Below, piece after piece: positions 36,853-44,241 of a DNA stretch of 48,912 nucleotides (the stretch's first letter is position 1; every line of letters begins with the position of its first letter). A model generated the notes under the pieces. That model was not told the DNA's origin. It saw nothing but the letters and a program-made list of their open reading frames with translations, and searched no databases. This DNA is from an uncultured Alphaproteobacteria bacterium. GTDB lineage: Bacteria > Pseudomonadota > Alphaproteobacteria > MPNO01 > UBA2964. The position numbers and the translations under genes are program-made. The DNA is taken from the NCBI GenBank assembly GCA_938048165.1, contig CALIBP010000041.1, positions 1 through 48,912 of the forward strand, in the 5' to 3' direction.

Positions 36853-36950
36853 AAGAGACCTACTTTAAAAAATAGTGGCAGAGCATAGCGAAGTCATCAC
36901 AGCCGCGATAGGCTTATGCCAAACACCGCGCAATGTTAATAGGTGAAAAA

Positions 36951-37673
36951 ATGTCATATGAAGTTGTCACACTCGATGTCCAGGGGAGCGCCATGGACTG
37001 CCTTGTCTTTAAACCACAGGGCGACGGTCCTTTTCCGGGCGTTGTCGTCGCTCAGCACATTCCGAATGCCCATGACGGACTAGAAGCAGATCCCTTCACC
37101 ATTGATATCGGGGACAAGTTTATTGCGAAGGGCTATGCCTGTGTTATTCCCTTCATTTTCCACTGGTGGCCGGTCGGCACCGATCTCGAGATCAAGCGCG
37201 AGGAATGGGACGATGCCAAAACGATCGCCGACCTGGATGCCGCTTGTGGATTGCTCACCAGTCTTGATGGCATTGATACTGATCGTATCGCGATCATGGG
37301 TCATTGCTGGGGTGGCCGTATGTCCTGGCTTGGGGCTTGCCATAATCCGCAATATAAAGTCCTCGGCACCCTCTATGGCGGTCGCATAAAAATAGGCATG
37401 GGTGAAGGTAACCCTGCCCCGATTGATCTCGTCGGCAACATGAAGTGCGACGTCATCGGGATTTTTGGCAAAGAAGATCAAAACCCCTCTCAGGAGGATG
37501 TTGCCGATCTTGATGCTGCCCTCACCGCTGCCGGGATTGATCATGAGTTCCACAGCTATGACGGCGCCGGCCACGGTTTTCAGGACTTTGTCACGGAAGA
37601 TCGCTACCGACCCGAAGCAACCGAAGATTCCTGGACAAAACTATTTGCGTATTTCGACGCCCGCCTGCAATGA
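36951..37673 (+). CDS. Dienelactone hydrolase family protein
   Basis: This 240-residue alpha/beta hydrolase has the cysteine nucleophile typical of dienelactone hydrolases. The triad can be assigned as Cys119 (GHCWGG), Asp176 (GKEDQ) and His208 (GAGHGF). There is no signal peptide, so it acts in the cytoplasm; the substrate is unknown. An in-frame ATG exists at 36933, but the ATG at 36951 has AGGTGA five bases upstream and gives the usual N-terminus MSYEVVTLDV. The TPP riboswitch begins 47 bases after its stop, so it belongs to a different transcript from the operon that follows. Confidence 0.88.
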   Translation: MSYEVVTLDVQGSAMDCLVFKPQGDGPFPGVVVAQHIPNAHDGLEADPFTIDIGDKFIAKGYACVIPFIFHWWPVGTDLEIKREEWDDAKTIADLDAACGLLTSLDGIDTDRIAIMGHCWGGRMSWLGACHNPQYKVLGTLYGGRIKIGMGEGNPAPIDLVGNMKCDVIGIFGKEDQNPSQEDVADLDAALTAAGIDHEFHSYDGAGHGFQDFVTEDRYRPEATEDSWTKLFAYFDARLQ

Positions 37674-37709: not shown

Positions 37710-37720
37710 AAATCCACTTG

Positions 37721-37829
37721 TTCCCAGGGGAGCCTCGTTAGGAGGCTGAGATCCCGCCAGCATTACCACTCACGGTGCTGCAACGCGGAGACCCTTCGAA
37801 CCTGATCCGGGTTATGCCGGCGTAGGGAA
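37721..37829 (+). promoter_or_regulatory. TPP riboswitch (thi box)
   Basis: The RNA aptamer that binds thiamin pyrophosphate is clearly present. TTCCC (37721-37725) pairs with GGGAA (37825-37829) as P1. AGCCTC/GAGGCT forms the next hairpin and ends in the invariant CUGAGA (37746-37751). CCGC/GCGG and CAGCA/TGCTG form the variable arm. The second conserved half reads ACCCTTCGAACC then TGATCCGGGT and ATGCCGGCGTAGGGA up to 37828. The downstream gene starts 88 bases later. CATCC (37856-37860) can pair with GGATG (37905-37909) over the ribosome binding site, which suggests translational control; a weak stem before TTTTT at about 37892 leaves early termination possible. Confidence 0.95.
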
Positions 37830-37916
37830 AGGGAAATCGTGCTTGTTACCCCCTTCATCCCTGCATTTTTGGCAACCGGATTCAGGCCGTGTTTTTGCTC
37901 GTGAGGATGTCTGTTT

Positions 37917-38996
37917 GTGACCGAGGCGCAGATCATTGAGACCCTACTCGATTTCATCGCTGCCGATAGCACCAGTGACGATCAATTCAATGCGCTCGCG
38001 TTGCAGATATTTGCCTATCAATTCGAAAATAACGTCCCCTATCAGCGCTTCTGCCGCCAGCGCGAAAAAACACCGCGAACCGTACAGAACTGGCGGAGCA
38101 TTCCTGCAGTTCCGATCAATGGCTACAAAGATCTAACACTCAGCTGTTGTGACCCCGAATCCGCAGAGCGGATTTTCATGACCAGCGGTACGACTAAAGA
38201 CGGAGTCCGGGGAAAATGTCATCACCCATCACTGTCGGTCTACGACGCCTCGATGATTACGGCTTTTCGCCAACGCTTTATGCAGGAACACGCCTCGCTG
38301 CGGATGGGCATCCTGTTTTCAACAGAACAGACAATGCCCAATTCTTCGCTGGCGCATTATTTGGCTTTAGCGCTCGATAAGTTCGGGTCAGACGGCAGCC
38401 GCTATTTTTTCAATGATGGCGGGCTGGATAGTGAACAGCTCTTTGCGGAACTGGAGCGTGCCGTACAAACTGGCGAACCCTATGCCCTGCTTGGTGCCAG
38501 TTTCAGTTTTGTTCATGTGATGGACGAGATGGACCGTCTCGGCAAAACTGTTTCGCTACCGGAAGGCAGCAGAATCCTCGATACCGGTGGCTTTAAGGGC
38601 CAGTCACGCGAACTGGAGCTCGATGAGTTTTATGATCTCCTCGAAGCCCGTTTTGGTGTTCCGCGGGGTCAATGCATCAATATGTATGGCATGACCGAAC
38701 TCAGCACGGAGTTTTACGACTGGGGCAACGCCACCTGCCCTTCCGTTAAATCCGGACCCCACTGGATACGCAGCCAAATCGTCAATCCGTTGACGGGCGA
38801 AGAACTGCCGAAAGGAGAAAAAGGCGTTCTGGTTCATTGCGACCTCGCCCATTTTAATTGTGTCTCGTCAATCCTCACTGAAGATGCCGGTATCGAAGTC
38901 GATGACGGTTTCCTGTTGCTCGGGCGTGCCGAGGGTGCCGAAGCCAAAGGCTGCTCGATGGCGGTCGATGAGTTCCTGAAAGCAGCGCAGGGGTAA
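37917..38996 (+). CDS. LuxE-like acyl-protein synthetase
   Basis: This 359-residue protein belongs to the LuxE family, which activates a carboxylic acid with ATP and holds it as a thioester before passing it to the LuxC reductase. The adenylate-forming loop FMTSGTTKDGVRG lies near residue 89, with INMYGMTELS near 261. Cys346, 13 residues from the C-terminus, matches the position of the acylated cysteine of Vibrio LuxE. The start is GTG 37917 with GAGGA nine bases upstream; no in-frame ATG upstream suits. It is the first gene after the TPP riboswitch and is followed four bases later by the LuxC-like gene. The substrate is unknown; context points to a thiamin-related acid. Confidence 0.85.
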   Translation: MTEAQIIETLLDFIAADSTSDDQFNALALQIFAYQFENNVPYQRFCRQREKTPRTVQNWRSIPAVPINGYKDLTLSCCDPESAERIFMTSGTTKDGVRGKCHHPSLSVYDASMITAFRQRFMQEHASLRMGILFSTEQTMPNSSLAHYLALALDKFGSDGSRYFFNDGGLDSEQLFAELERAVQTGEPYALLGASFSFVHVMDEMDRLGKTVSLPEGSRILDTGGFKGQSRELELDEFYDLLEARFGVPRGQCINMYGMTELSTEFYDWGNATCPSVKSGPHWIRSQIVNPLTGEELPKGEKGVLVHCDLAHFNCVSSILTEDAGIEVDDGFLLLGRAEGAEAKGCSMAVDEFLKAAQG

Positions 38997-39000
38997 ATAG

Positions 39001-40452
39001 ATGTCACTCAAAGCAGGATATCTTCCAGGTTTGCAAGACGACGATGTCGAATGGCAAACGCTATCCTATGAGCGGGACGGCCCGGCGATAGAGGTATCGG
39101 TTCCGCTGCTCAGTCACCGGCAAATGAAAGCTCTGTCCGGACGTATTAAAGAGGCTAGCCAACGTCACCTGAAACCAATGGCGGTCTCTGACATTGCAGC
39201 AACGATAGATACCGTCATTGCTAGGCTTTTGGACCGCAGCGACCCCTACCGTGAACAGGCCGAAGAATATCTCCCCAAAATCACCGGTTATGATGCCGAA
39301 ATGGTGAGGTTGGGCCTGACAGGCTATCTCAAGACATTTCGACTGTCGGAGCTTAACCGGTTTCTTGCCGAGGATTTCGTCAATCCAAAAATACTCGATG
39401 AATTCCAACCTTTGCCCAAGGGTGGTTATGGTAAAGCCTACGGTCCCGATCTACTCGCTCATATCTGGGCCGGTAATGTTCCTGGTCTGCCCCTATGGAG
39501 CCTCATATCCGGCTTACTGGTAAAGGCCGGAAACATCGGCAAGGTCGCCAGCGCCGAGCCCCTCATGGCGAGTTGGTTCGCAGAACTGGTAGCCGAGATC
39601 AACCCTACGCTTGGCCAATGCCTGGCCGTTGTGTGGTGGAAGGGCGGTGACATAGACCGCGAGCAGGCTTTGCTCAACCAGGCCGACCTGGTGGTTGCCT
39701 ATGGCAATAACGACACACTGCAGCAGGTTCGTGATCGGACGCCGATCACCACACGCTGTCTGACCTACAGCCATAAGGTCAGCTTTGGCATGATCTCGAG
39801 GGCCGCCCTCGACACTGGCAAGGCCTGGGCCGTCGCCCATCAGGCCGCCTATGACATCGTGCGCTATGACCAACAGGGCTGTTATTCGCCGCATCTATTC
39901 TTTGTCGAAAAGGGTGGTGCCGTCACGCCACAGGAATTCGCACAGTATATAGCCAACGAGCTCAATTGTTTTGAAGAGAAATTTCCGCGTCGTGCCCTGA
40001 GCATCGAAGAAGCTGGTGGGGTCGCAGCATGGCAGCAGACAGAAGAGATGAAGTCATTTTCTGATGAGAACAGTACCGTCATGAGTGATGCCAACGGAGC
40101 CTGGAGTGTCGCCTATTCCGAAGCAGAAGATAATTTGGCGCCCTCCGGCCTGAACCGGACGGCCAAGGTCATTTCTGTCGAGACTCTGGACGATGTCCCC
40201 GCCCGAATTTCCCCTTATAAAGCATTCCTCCAGACTGTCGGAATTGCCGCGGCACCGGAAGAATTACGTCGCCTGGCCGATTTGCTTGGAACGGTTGGAG
40301 TCACCCGGATCAGCGCTCTCGAGCATATGACATCTCCGGAAGCGGGATGGCATCATGATGGTCGCTTTAATCTGCTCGACCTTGTCACCATGACTGAAGT
40401 TGAACGATCAGCCGAGACCGCCGCCGAAGCTTTTTCGGATTATGTTGATTGA
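39001..40452 (+). CDS. LuxC-like acyl reductase
   Basis: This 483-residue protein is of the LuxC / acyl-CoA reductase family, related to aldehyde dehydrogenases. It reduces an enzyme-bound acyl thioester to an aldehyde with NADPH. The family region LAHIWAGNVPGLPLWSL lies near residue 152, and the active-site motif DQQGCYSPH places the nucleophile at Cys294, close to the Cys286 I recall for Vibrio LuxC. It is four bases downstream of the LuxE-like gene, so the pair forms a carboxylate reductase. No luxAB, luxD or luxG gene is nearby, so light production is not its role. Confidence 0.85.
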   Translation: MSLKAGYLPGLQDDDVEWQTLSYERDGPAIEVSVPLLSHRQMKALSGRIKEASQRHLKPMAVSDIAATIDTVIARLLDRSDPYREQAEEYLPKITGYDAEMVRLGLTGYLKTFRLSELNRFLAEDFVNPKILDEFQPLPKGGYGKAYGPDLLAHIWAGNVPGLPLWSLISGLLVKAGNIGKVASAEPLMASWFAELVAEINPTLGQCLAVVWWKGGDIDREQALLNQADLVVAYGNNDTLQQVRDRTPITTRCLTYSHKVSFGMISRAALDTGKAWAVAHQAAYDIVRYDQQGCYSPHLFFVEKGGAVTPQEFAQYIANELNCFEEKFPRRALSIEEAGGVAAWQQTEEMKSFSDENSTVMSDANGAWSVAYSEAEDNLAPSGLNRTAKVISVETLDDVPARISPYKAFLQTVGIAAAPEELRRLADLLGTVGVTRISALEHMTSPEAGWHHDGRFNLLDLVTMTEVERSAETAAEAFSDYVD

Positions 40453-40470
40453 GCTGATGGAATTGGGCCG

Positions 40471-41214
40471 ATGAGTTTCCTGACAGTCAACGAAGCGTCC
40501 TACTGCTATCAAGGCAATGAGGCCGTCGTCGACAGGGTGCAATGGTCAATTGCTCAGGGTGAATTTCATTGCCTGGTCGGTCGTAGCGGTTGCGGCAAGA
40601 CAACATTACTCAAGATTGCCGCAGGCCTTTTGCAACCGACCTCCGGTTCGATCTTTATCGATGATACTCAGGTTGTCGAACCCAGCGATCAGGTCGGCTT
40701 CGTGTTTCAGGCCCCGACCCTGCTCGAATGGCTACCCGTCACTGACAATGTATTGCTACCTATCTCTCTGAAACGGCGGGTAACAGCCAAAGACTATACC
40801 CGCGCCGCAGAACTTCTGGAGTTAGTCGGGCTGGGCAGCTTCACCAAACGCCATCCACAAGAGCTGTCGGGCGGACAGCAAAGCCGGGTGGCCATCGCCC
40901 GCGCGCTGATCAGGGAGCCAGCATTCCTGATGCTCGATGAACCGTTTGCGGCGCTCGACGCGATTACCCGGGCCGAGCTGCAGGATGATTTGCTGCGCCT
41001 GTGCGAACACCAAAAGACCACGGTCCTGTTTGTGACCCACGATATCGCGGAAGCCGCTTATCTGGGAGATTTCGTAACCGTTATGTCTCAGGGCGAACTC
41101 CAACAAGCTATCCCTATTGATCTCGCGAAACCGCGGGCACCCGAAATTCGTTATGACAGTACGTTTAACGCGCTATGTCTCAAAATCCGGAAAACCATGG
41201 ATGGTACGGCATGA
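40471..41214 (+). CDS. ABC importer ATPase (NitT/TauT type)
   Basis: This 247-residue ATP-binding subunit powers the importer formed with the next two genes. Walker A is GRSGCGKTT at 37-45, the Q-loop is Gln80 (FVFQAP), the signature is LSGGQ at 132-136, Walker B is FLMLDE at 152-157, and the switch histidine is His190 (VTHD). It is closest to the nitrate/taurine/thiamin-precursor family (including ThiZ). The permease ATG overlaps its TGA. Control by a TPP riboswitch suggests a thiamin-related substrate. Confidence 0.93.
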   Translation: MSFLTVNEASYCYQGNEAVVDRVQWSIAQGEFHCLVGRSGCGKTTLLKIAAGLLQPTSGSIFIDDTQVVEPSDQVGFVFQAPTLLEWLPVTDNVLLPISLKRRVTAKDYTRAAELLELVGLGSFTKRHPQELSGGQQSRVAIARALIREPAFLMLDEPFAALDAITRAELQDDLLRLCEHQKTTVLFVTHDIAEAAYLGDFVTVMSQGELQQAIPIDLAKPRAPEIRYDSTFNALCLKIRKTMDGTA

Positions 41215-41969
41215 GTATCCGGATTTATTCCTTTTTTCTGCTCATAGCCCTGCTCGTTGGGTGGGAAGTGATTTGCAGGCTGTTAGGCATTTCGGCATTG
41301 GTGATCCCGACCCCTACTGCAGTCCTGGAAGCCTTATGGAGCACACTGGAAAGCGGCTATTTGTGGCCGCATATATGGATCACAACAGCAGAAATGGTGC
41401 TTGGGCTCGCCTTGGGCTGCGGTATCGGCTTTGTCTGCGGCATCATTCTTGGCGAGACCGAATTTCTCAGGCGATTGCTCTACCCCTACATCATCGCCAG
41501 CCAGGTTGTCCCAAAACTGGCTCTTGGGCCTCTCTTTATCGTCTGGTTCGGGTTTGGCATGACGTCCACGGTCGTCATCACAGCTTTGATTTGCTTTTTT
41601 CCGTTACTGGAAAACACCCTGACCGGCATCCACCATATCGATCCGCAAAAGCGGGAGCTGTTTCGCATGCTGCGGGCCAGCCGAATGCAAACGCTGTTCC
41701 GGCTCAAAATCCCCTCTGGATTGCCGGTGATCATGGCCGGTGTCCGCGTCGCCGTTGTCCTGGCACTGGTCGGCGCCGTCGTCGGTGAGTTTATCGGTGG
41801 CCGGGAAGGCCTCGGCGCCGCCATTATTGCCGCACAGGGAATGATGGATTCAACCCTGATGTTCGCGCTCTTCATCGTCATCACCTTCCTTGGGATGATT
41901 TTTTATCAAGCAGCTATCTGGTCGGAGCGTTGGTTACTCCGTCGCCATATTAAAGGAAAAACACAATGA
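41211..41969 (+). CDS. ABC importer permease (NitT/TauT type)
   Basis: This is a 252-residue inner-membrane subunit with about six helices. The cytoplasmic EAA loop, which docks the ATPase, is seen around HIDPQKRELFRMLRASRMQT (residues about 141-160). PKLALGPLFIVWFG and VGEFIGGREGLGAAI are typical of the TauC/SsuC/ThiX group. A start at 41175 is also open, but the ATG at 41211 overlaps the ATPase stop as ATGA and removes a hydrophilic tail, so I prefer it. The binding-protein ATG again overlaps its stop. Confidence 0.93.
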   Translation: MSIRIYSFFLLIALLVGWEVICRLLGISALVIPTPTAVLEALWSTLESGYLWPHIWITTAEMVLGLALGCGIGFVCGIILGETEFLRRLLYPYIIASQVVPKLALGPLFIVWFGFGMTSTVVITALICFFPLLENTLTGIHHIDPQKRELFRMLRASRMQTLFRLKIPSGLPVIMAGVRVAVVLALVGAVVGEFIGGREGLGAAIIAAQGMMDSTLMFALFIVITFLGMIFYQAAIWSERWLLRRHIKGKTQ

Positions 41970-42934
41970 AATTTTTGGGAATTTTGACAGCCTTATCGCT
42001 GACTGCCAGCATCGCTCAGGCGCAAAAATTGGACAGCTTTACCGTCGCAGGGTGGAGCAAACCCATCAGCGAAATTACCAATCTGCTTGCCGAACCCGAT
42101 AAGGGTTTCTTCAAAGCCAGGGGGATCAAGCTGGGATACGTACCGGGAACCGGTGGGGGTTCTGCTATTCGGAATATGCTAACCGGCAAGGCCGACGTGG
42201 CCTTTACGGACCCAGCCTCATTTTATCAGGCGCTGGACAAAGGCGAGAAGCTTGTTGCGATCTACAATATTTATCCGCAGAACGTCTTTAATGTCGTATC
42301 GCCCAAAGACCGCAACATCACCAAGCCATCAGATCTTAAAGGTAAAAAGATCGGCGTTTACAGCCTGTCCAGCGGAACCCGCCAAAACTTGCAGGTCCTG
42401 CTTCATCAAGTCGGCCTAAAGGAATCTGACGTCACCATACAGGTAACCGGGCTTTTGAACTTTGCCCCCGTAATCCAGGGCCAGGTCGATGCAACAGCGG
42501 CAACGGATACCGGCCTGTTTGTCGGTAAGTTAAAAGGCCTCAAAGAGGTAAACGTTATTGAGGTTAGAGACTACCTCAACGTGCCGAGCGACATGTTTGT
42601 CGTCACTGAGAAGACCTACCAGACGAAAAAGCCGCTCCTGAAGCGCTTCCTTGCCGCCTATCGCGACAGCGCAGCCTGGATGATCAAGAATCCAAAAGAG
42701 GCCGCCAAGATTGCCAAAAAACGGGCTATTAATGGCCGTAATGAAGCCATAAATCTTGAGATAATCAAGATCCGGAACATTTCATCGGTTTCGCCGACTA
42801 CAGCAAAAAAGGGATTGGGCGCCTTTGACCTTGATTTGCTGCAAAAGGGCGCCAATACCTTTAAACAGCTGGGATTGATCAAAAAGGACATCGACATTTC
42901 CAGTGTCGTAAAATCGGATTTAATCCCTAAATAA
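41966..42934 (+). CDS. Periplasmic substrate-binding protein (NMT1/TauA family)
   Basis: This 322-residue protein has a signal peptide (about residues 1-19, ending SIAQA) with no lipobox cysteine, so it should be free in the periplasm. The body is a type II periplasmic binding fold of the NMT1/THI5-TauA family: GWSKPISEITNLLAEPDKG, GKADVAFTDPASFYQAL and GVYSLSSGTRQNLQVLL are recognisable. The CCCFC signature of the yeast Thi5 suicide enzyme is absent, so it binds and does not synthesise. Ligand preference cannot be read from the sequence; riboswitch control argues for a thiamin precursor or breakdown product. Confidence 0.9.
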   Translation: MKFLGILTALSLTASIAQAQKLDSFTVAGWSKPISEITNLLAEPDKGFFKARGIKLGYVPGTGGGSAIRNMLTGKADVAFTDPASFYQALDKGEKLVAIYNIYPQNVFNVVSPKDRNITKPSDLKGKKIGVYSLSSGTRQNLQVLLHQVGLKESDVTIQVTGLLNFAPVIQGQVDATAATDTGLFVGKLKGLKEVNVIEVRDYLNVPSDMFVVTEKTYQTKKPLLKRFLAAYRDSAAWMIKNPKEAAKIAKKRAINGRNEAINLEIIKIRNISSVSPTTAKKGLGAFDLDLLQKGANTFKQLGLIKKDIDISSVVKSDLIPK

Positions 42935-42952
42935 ACCACCGGGTCTTCGCTG

Positions 42953-43720
42953 ATGAATTTTGACGGAAAAATTGTTCTGGTTACCGGTTCCAGCCGCGGC
43001 ATAGGCGCCGCCATTGCCAAGGCTTTTGCCGCTGAGGGAGCAACCGTCATCGTCAACTATGTCCAAAACGTGGACGCCGCCGATGACGTCGTCGCCGCCT
43101 GTAAAAAAGCGGGTGGCGACGCAATAGCCATTCAGGCAGACGTAACATCAGGCGATCAAATTCAGGCGCTGGTTGATCAAACTTTGATGGACTTTGCGAA
43201 AATAGATGTTGTCGTTAACAACGCCTTTAAACCCTACACTTTTGATCCCGATAATCGCAAACAGTTCTCAGAGCTGAACTGGCAGGATTATCAGGACCAG
43301 CTCGATGGTGCGCTGTTCTCGACCTACACAATGTGTCAGGCAGTCCTCCCTGCCCTCAAGAAACGGACCCAGGGCAGTATCATTAACATTGCGAGCGACC
43401 TCGTTGCCCGGCCCACGATCCCCTATCATGACTATACGACGGCGAAGTCAGCCTTGATCGGGTTCAGTCGCAACCTGGCGATGGAGCTCGGCCCGCTCGG
43501 TATACGCGTGAATTGTGTGGCACCTGGATTGGTGTATCCAACCGATGCCAGCCGCGAGACCAAGGAGCGCGTTAAAGAGATGATTATTGCGCAAACGCCA
43601 ATGCACCGCATTGCCTCCCCGGAAGACATTACTGGTCCTGTGATGTTCCTCGCTTCTGACTGGAGTCGTTTCATGACCGGCCAGACTCTTTATGTCGATG
43701 GCGGATTGGTGATGAAATGA
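42953..43720 (+). CDS. Short-chain dehydrogenase/reductase
   Basis: This 255-residue classical SDR resembles 3-oxoacyl-ACP reductases. The cofactor loop is TGSSRGIG at 11-18, the NNA motif is at 89-91, and the catalytic Ser148, Tyr161 and Lys165 (YTTAK) are intact. The C-terminal GQTLYVDGG is typical. It follows the binding protein by 18 bases and overlaps the next gene by four. In this operon it may reduce the aldehyde released by the LuxC-like enzyme to an alcohol; that is inference from gene order. Confidence 0.92.
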   Translation: MNFDGKIVLVTGSSRGIGAAIAKAFAAEGATVIVNYVQNVDAADDVVAACKKAGGDAIAIQADVTSGDQIQALVDQTLMDFAKIDVVVNNAFKPYTFDPDNRKQFSELNWQDYQDQLDGALFSTYTMCQAVLPALKKRTQGSIINIASDLVARPTIPYHDYTTAKSALIGFSRNLAMELGPLGIRVNCVAPGLVYPTDASRETKERVKEMIIAQTPMHRIASPEDITGPVMFLASDWSRFMTGQTLYVDGGLVMK

Positions 43721-44241
43721 GAATGTTTATGTATAAGACAATTCGGGTCTCCGCTACACTGGCCCTATTATTTGGCATACAGGCGGTTTCAAACCCTGCC
43801 AACGCTTTTTGCGTCGTCAACCTTTGGAAAGACACACTTCACGTAAAGCTGAAGACCTACAACCCCCTGGGAAATTTTCACCGGATGATAAAATCCGGGG
43901 ACAAAGCCTGTTGCGAATGGTTTGACCGAAACTGCAATCCCAGCGCATCGCGTGACGGCACCATTGTCTTTGATATTCGGAGCCGAAACAAAAAGCCGCG
44001 AGAACTATATTGTTCGACAGGCTTGCAAAAACGCGTTGTTGGCGTCGGCGGCGGTACGATCACCGTTCGGGAAAATATTTCCAAGATCGGTGGCCTGGAA
44101 TGCGACAGCCGAGACTATCTGGCCCGCCCTGTCACAGCGACATTACCAGCCAATAGCTATGGTGTTCCGATGTTCAAACTTCCAGACCAGGTCCCCCCTG
44201 TTGGGCCAAGTCTGCATGATCAAAACGCCGCCCCTCAATAG
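43717..44241 (+). CDS. Secreted cysteine-rich protein of unknown function
   Basis: I do not recognise this 174-residue protein. An N-terminal signal peptide (about residues 1-30, ending NANA-like PANA) precedes a mature part that starts with FCVVNLW. It has seven cysteines after the cleavage site, including a CC pair at about 65-66, which suggests disulfide bonds in the periplasm. The C-terminal 25 residues are proline-rich. It overlaps the SDR stop by four bases (ATGA) and is the last gene of the TPP-riboswitch operon, so it is probably co-regulated. Its 3' end is 25 bases from the convergent metH stop. Confidence 0.75.
   Translation: MRMFMYKTIRVSATLALLFGIQAVSNPANAFCVVNLWKDTLHVKLKTYNPLGNFHRMIKSGDKACCEWFDRNCNPSASRDGTIVFDIRSRNKKPRELYCSTGLQKRVVGVGGGTITVRENISKIGGLECDSRDYLARPVTATLPANSYGVPMFKLPDQVPPVGPSLHDQNAAPQ

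Follow-up and report, generated by a model that had tools for sequence, protein, structure and literature searches.

Gene organization of the locus

The window analyzed here is a 48,912-nucleotide stretch (positions 1 to 48,912) of contig CALIBP010000041.1 (assembly GCA_938048165.1) of an uncultured Alphaproteobacteria bacterium. A LuxE-like gene (37917-38996, + strand, GTG start, 359 aa) and a LuxC-like gene (39001-40452, + strand, 483 aa) lie next to each other in the window. The LuxE-like protein matched the Pfam family PF04443 with 52.7 bits (cut-off 24.9), and the LuxC-like protein matched PF05893 with 298.4 bits (cut-off 21). To determine if both thioester cysteines are present, the proteins were aligned with the LuxC-LuxE structure 7xc6. 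Cys346 (codon at 38952-38954), located 13 residues from the LuxE-like C-terminus, fell on the KGCSLS cysteine of the LuxE of 7xc6 (profile match to 7xc6_E, E 7.6e-38), while Cys294 (codon at 39880-39882), located in DQQGCYSPH of the LuxC-like protein, aligned with DQQACFS of 7xc6_A (E 9.7e-21). Both cysteines were invariant in the relatives, in 83 of 83 LuxE rows and 84 of 84 LuxC rows, after genes with an internal stop or under 200 aa were left out. The LuxE model (pLDDT 90.1) was predicted to fold like PaaK-type ANL enzymes; 7xc6 was not listed among its first 50 fold matches, although it was found by the sequence profile.

A sequence-only reading had described the pair as a carboxylate reductase with both catalytic cysteines but no luciferase, and our data confirmed the observation. 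No bacterial luciferase family was detected among the 30 window proteins scanned with Pfam, although the rest of the genome was not searched for lux genes. That reading did not include the riboswitch or the remaining genes of the operon, which give the substrate class. A TPP riboswitch (37716-37846, + strand) was detected directly upstream, ending 70 bases before the LuxE-like start codon (RF00059, 72.3 bits, gathering 54.3, E 2.1e-12, full model 1-105). RNA folding of 37716-37930 (z -1.12) did not show the expression platform.

Four genes follow closely on the same strand: an ABC transporter ATPase of the NitT/TauT/SsuB type (40471-41214; PF00005, 117.6 bits); an ABC transporter permease of the SsuC/TauC type (41175-41969; PF00528, 101.3 bits), which overlaps the ATPase and whose exact start is uncertain; a periplasmic NMT1/THI5-like substrate-binding protein without cysteine and with an apparent signal peptide (41966-42934; PF09084, 165.6 bits); and a short-chain dehydrogenase/reductase (SDR) (42953-43720; PF13561, 208.9 bits; NF006393, 297.7 bits, cut-off 292). 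The two Lux-like genes are thus part of a thiamin-regulated unit from 37716 to 43720. A dienelactone hydrolase gene (36933-37673) was not considered part of the unit, as it precedes the riboswitch and was found at that place in only eight loci (L014-L021; L and G numbers denote loci and genomes of this study). An apparently secreted, cysteine-containing ORF of 174 aa (43717-44241) overlaps the SDR stop codon and is conserved after the SDR in L014-L018, with no Pfam or NCBIfam match.

Conservation of the riboswitch and the operon

In a sample of 385 genomes of the class, 7 had a LuxC relative at E <= 1e-30, including the window's own genome, and the six others all had RF00059 over gathering upstream. 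A scan of one genome per species yielded 277 relatives, of which 80 were kept, from Azospirillum, Polaromonas, Acidovorax, Achromobacter, Variovorax, Geobacillus, Domibacillus, Desulfosporosinus and uncultured marine lineages among others. With hits on the minus strand or under the bit limits left out, all six genes were present in order in 64 of the 80 loci, 61 with the riboswitch and 3 without it (L028, L032 and L062, which also showed none in a permissive Rfam search). In L062, the only TPP riboswitch found in the genome (G410) precedes thiM, thiE and thiD on another contig. Eleven loci had riboswitch-LuxE-LuxC-SDR without ABC genes, and 5 were cut by contig ends, 4 of them with the riboswitch. 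A scan of viral contigs with LuxC found no relative.

The total of 76 of 80 loci with a TPP-type riboswitch, from Proteobacteria and Firmicutes, rests on a model (R1) that we built from seven members, some of which reappear among the loci and match by construction (L015, L017, L018, L065). Many Burkholderiales hits were weak (20-33 bits), and six of eight weak sites tested did not reach the Rfam gathering score, but their fixed place, mostly 47-125 bases before luxE, supports them. As a control, a Pseudomonadota sample of 398 genomes was searched with PF05893, yielding 30 loci. R1 matched six of the 30 (one is the window), exactly the six whose LuxC is at least 54% identical to that of the window, and Rfam gathering was reached in three of the 18 tested. 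The other LuxC proteins that aligned by BLAST were 24-29% identical and had no match in the flanks examined, about 1.5 kb on each side. The riboswitch is therefore a property of this clade, not of LuxC proteins in general.

Association with thiamin genes

To determine which half of thiamin the operon serves, neighboring genes were examined. In Ramlibacter and relatives, a thiD gene lies between the riboswitch and luxE in 5 of 80 loci (L047, L061 and L092 by NCBIfam TIGR00097 at 310-318 bits; L056 and L090 by tblastn). In Variovorax L066 (8644-8900), L068 (8646-8865) and L077 (8646-8865), the same place holds a short frame that, read by eye, looks like the two ends of thiD with the middle gone, apparently a deletion scar, and L079 (4728-4924) keeps only the start. 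L037 has thiC with its own riboswitch directly upstream. In Metabacillus L080, thiM, thiD and thiE follow the SDR, and in L061 a ThiO-like gene (208 bits, cut-off 250.8) and thiG follow.

ThiC was sought in 72 carrier genomes, ThiG in 31, and ThiD, ThiM, thiamin pyrophosphokinase, ThiE and TPP sites in 18. ThiC was over the cut-off in 49 of 72 (40 of 50 and 9 of 22 in two sets), fragmentary in one (G393) and absent in 22, indicating that the operon is not in general a replacement for ThiC and is an extra route in most carriers. However, all six carriers known to be at least 98% complete (G210, G300, G378, G104, G080 and G195) were among the 22; the first four entered the larger set as L018, L017, L015 and L065, the same contigs by length. 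In these six and the window's own genome (67.86% complete), ThiD was present in 7 of 7, ThiM in 0 of 7, thiamin pyrophosphokinase in 0 of 7 and strong ThiG in 5 of 7 (not G080 and G195), while ThiE was matched in 7 of 7 (G000 below the cut-off). G300, a single contig of 4.1 Mb, has two TPP sites, one at this operon and one before thiO-thiS-thiG-thiE (51.2 bits, just below gathering; thiO and thiS were named by eye). Judged by these genes, which did not include TenA or other HMP salvage genes, such a genome makes the thiazole and needs the pyrimidine.

Predicted transport

The model of the binding protein (pLDDT 87.4) was closest to a thiamin-bound protein of C. difficile (4nmy, E 1.7e-19) and to the formylaminopyrimidine-binding protein 3ix1 (E 3.6e-19), followed by sulfonate-binding SsuA. 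The structure alignments of this study used 40 and 33 chosen sequences of those available, the former including two from outside the clade. A THI5-like HMP-P synthase, a cytosolic enzyme that appears to carry a cysteine-rich CCCFC motif (the yeast motif is visible in the alignment), was set aside for this protein because it has no cysteine and an apparent signal peptide by eye.

On plasmids, 53 records had a LuxC match, and a TPP-type riboswitch was found in 8 of 8 loci examined (L182 below gathering). More distant members, 38-39% identical, have a different importer: L. plantarum L186 (10 kb plasmid) and L. brevis L187 (pLBN-5) carry riboswitch, NCS2 nucleobase permease, LuxE, LuxC and SDR, whereas Niallia taxi L184 carries two riboswitches, ThiW, NCS2 permease, LuxE, LuxC and SDR. 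The two lactobacillus units have identical protein accessions, suggesting recent transfer. Exchange of a thiamin-pyrimidine-type ABC importer for a nucleobase permease, with LuxE, LuxC and SDR constant, points to a small pyrimidine-like substrate; similar reasoning was used for CytX (Beaudoin et al., PMC5874261). The five sister MAGs of the window's genus (L014-L018) have no ABC genes between LuxC and SDR, and no close homologue of the binding protein was found elsewhere in them (E <= 1e-20; G210, G300, G378, L014 and L016), so their uptake is unexplained.

Proposed function of the operon

In line with the sequence-only reading, the context supports a carboxylate reductase outside bioluminescence whose substrate is not a fatty acid, although activity itself is inferred and has not been assayed. 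A role in thiamin metabolism is very likely, the pyrimidine branch is likely, and the exact acid is somewhat more likely than not. Our best explanation, held with reasonable but not high confidence, is a TPP-repressed operon for salvage of the thiamin pyrimidine in oxidised form. When TPP is low, the riboswitch would let the operon be made, and the ABC importer would bring in 4-amino-2-methylpyrimidine-5-carboxylate or a close relative. By analogy with the Lux enzymes, LuxE would adenylate the carboxylate with ATP, take the acyl group onto Cys346 and pass it to Cys294 of LuxC, which would reduce the thioester with NADPH to the pyrimidine aldehyde. The SDR, which stays next to LuxE and LuxC also where the ABC genes are missing, suggests that the aldehyde goes on to an alcohol. 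The alcohol of the pyrimidine branch is 4-amino-5-hydroxymethyl-2-methylpyrimidine (HMP), the substrate of ThiD, and ThiE would join the phosphorylated product to the thiazole phosphate. In the window's genus, with ThiG, ThiD and ThiE but no ThiC, this would supply the missing half of thiamin. The substrate, direction, cofactors and essentiality are inferred. The proposed acid is a thiamin metabolite of rat urine (Neal and Pearson 1964, cited in PMC7780320).

Other substrates appear unlikely but were considered. Reduction of the thiazole-side acid (4-methylthiazole-5-acetic acid) to hydroxyethylthiazole for ThiM would require the same chemistry, and thiM lies in the operon of Metabacillus L080. 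However, the absence of ThiM and the strong ThiG (5 of 7 genomes) in the window's circle argue against it, as do the location of thiD, not thiM, between riboswitch and luxE and the presence in Niallia of ThiW, probably a thiazole transporter, beside a nucleobase permease. Restoration of thiamin from thiamin acetic acid, by reduction of the side-chain carboxylate of intact oxidised thiamin, is suggested by the thiamin-bound 4nmy as the best fold match of the binding protein, but is doubtful given that thiamin pyrophosphokinase is lacking in the circle while ThiD and ThiE are kept in 7 of 7 and ThiG in 5 of 7; an NCS2 permease for cationic thiamin would also be odd. It remains possible, though improbable, that another heteroaromatic or pyrimidine acid, for example one with a different ring substituent, is reduced to HMP or an HMP-like alcohol, as the context fixes the branch and not the exact molecule; HMP with this ring is nevertheless the product that ThiD and ThiE need.

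An ordinary fatty-aldehyde maker of the Lux type that only happens to be thiamin-regulated is very unlikely. This reading is favored by family names and by public records (L180-L183), in which the genes are annotated as 'long-chain fatty acid--CoA ligase', 'acyl-CoA reductase' (bioluminescence) and '3-oxoacyl-ACP reductase' or 'SDR family oxidoreductase'. The proteins scored far below the NCBI equivalog cut-offs for long-chain LuxE (NF052244, 57.8 of 550 bits) and LuxC (NF052251, 102.3 of 750 bits), and the riboswitch and thiamin-gene association extends across two phyla. Pyridoxine-type substrates were set aside because of the TPP riboswitch and thi genes. A more speculative and unlikely possibility is that, in the ThiC-less marine relatives carrying riboswitch-LuxE-LuxC-SDR without importer genes beside them, the pyrimidine acid is not scavenged but made in the cell, so that LuxE, LuxC and SDR form the last steps of a ThiC-independent way of making the thiamin pyrimidine.

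Comparison with known systems

The protein families are ordinary, whereas the predicted pathway, a LuxE/LuxC carboxylate reductase serving vitamin B1 salvage, appears to be new; no paper linking LuxE/LuxC to thiamin was found in the open-access literature searched, which excluded subscription papers and preprints and does not prove absence. It predicts that an oxidised, so far dead-end thiamin fragment is reduced back to HMP, providing ThiC-less marine bacteria with a second way, besides uptake of HMP or aminopyrimidines, to obtain the pyrimidine, and suggests that LuxE/LuxC pairs can serve on small heteroaromatic acids. The LuxC-LuxE fatty acid reductase of luminous bacteria (7xc6) shares the two-protein carboxylate-to-aldehyde logic and both aligned cysteines, but the window has no detected luciferase and adds a TPP riboswitch, an importer and an SDR. 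In griseoluteic acid biosynthesis, an AMP-binding protein, an aldehyde-dehydrogenase-family protein and an SDR (EhpF, EhpG and EhpK) occur in one cluster type that turns phenazine dicarboxylate into a hydroxymethyl phenazine acid (PMC3175449; PMC11278526), although the assignment of these exact steps to the three proteins is tentative. The phenazine-biosynthesis ANL structures 3l2k/3hgv were among the fold matches of the LuxE model, but the ehp cluster belongs to secondary metabolism, apparently without riboswitch or importer. ThiXYZ with YlmB and TenA, which salvages base-degraded thiamin, also uses a TPP-regulated NMT1/THI5-type importer feeding the pyrimidine branch (PMC5627462), but there the intermediate is an aminopyrimidine for TenA, while here a carboxylate would be reduced. 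CytX/PLUTO-type uptake in ThiC-less organisms solves the same lack of ThiC with a nucleobase-type permease in thiamin clusters (PMC5874261), but takes up HMP itself without a reductase.

In G080 and G195, which lack ThiC, ThiG and ThiM but keep ThiD and ThiE, a second TPP riboswitch (L131, contig C28 of G080, around 38712-38810; L132, contig C5 of G195, around 72540-72649) precedes a branched-chain-amino-acid-type periplasmic binding protein with permease, so this may be a new kind of thiazole or thiamin importer.
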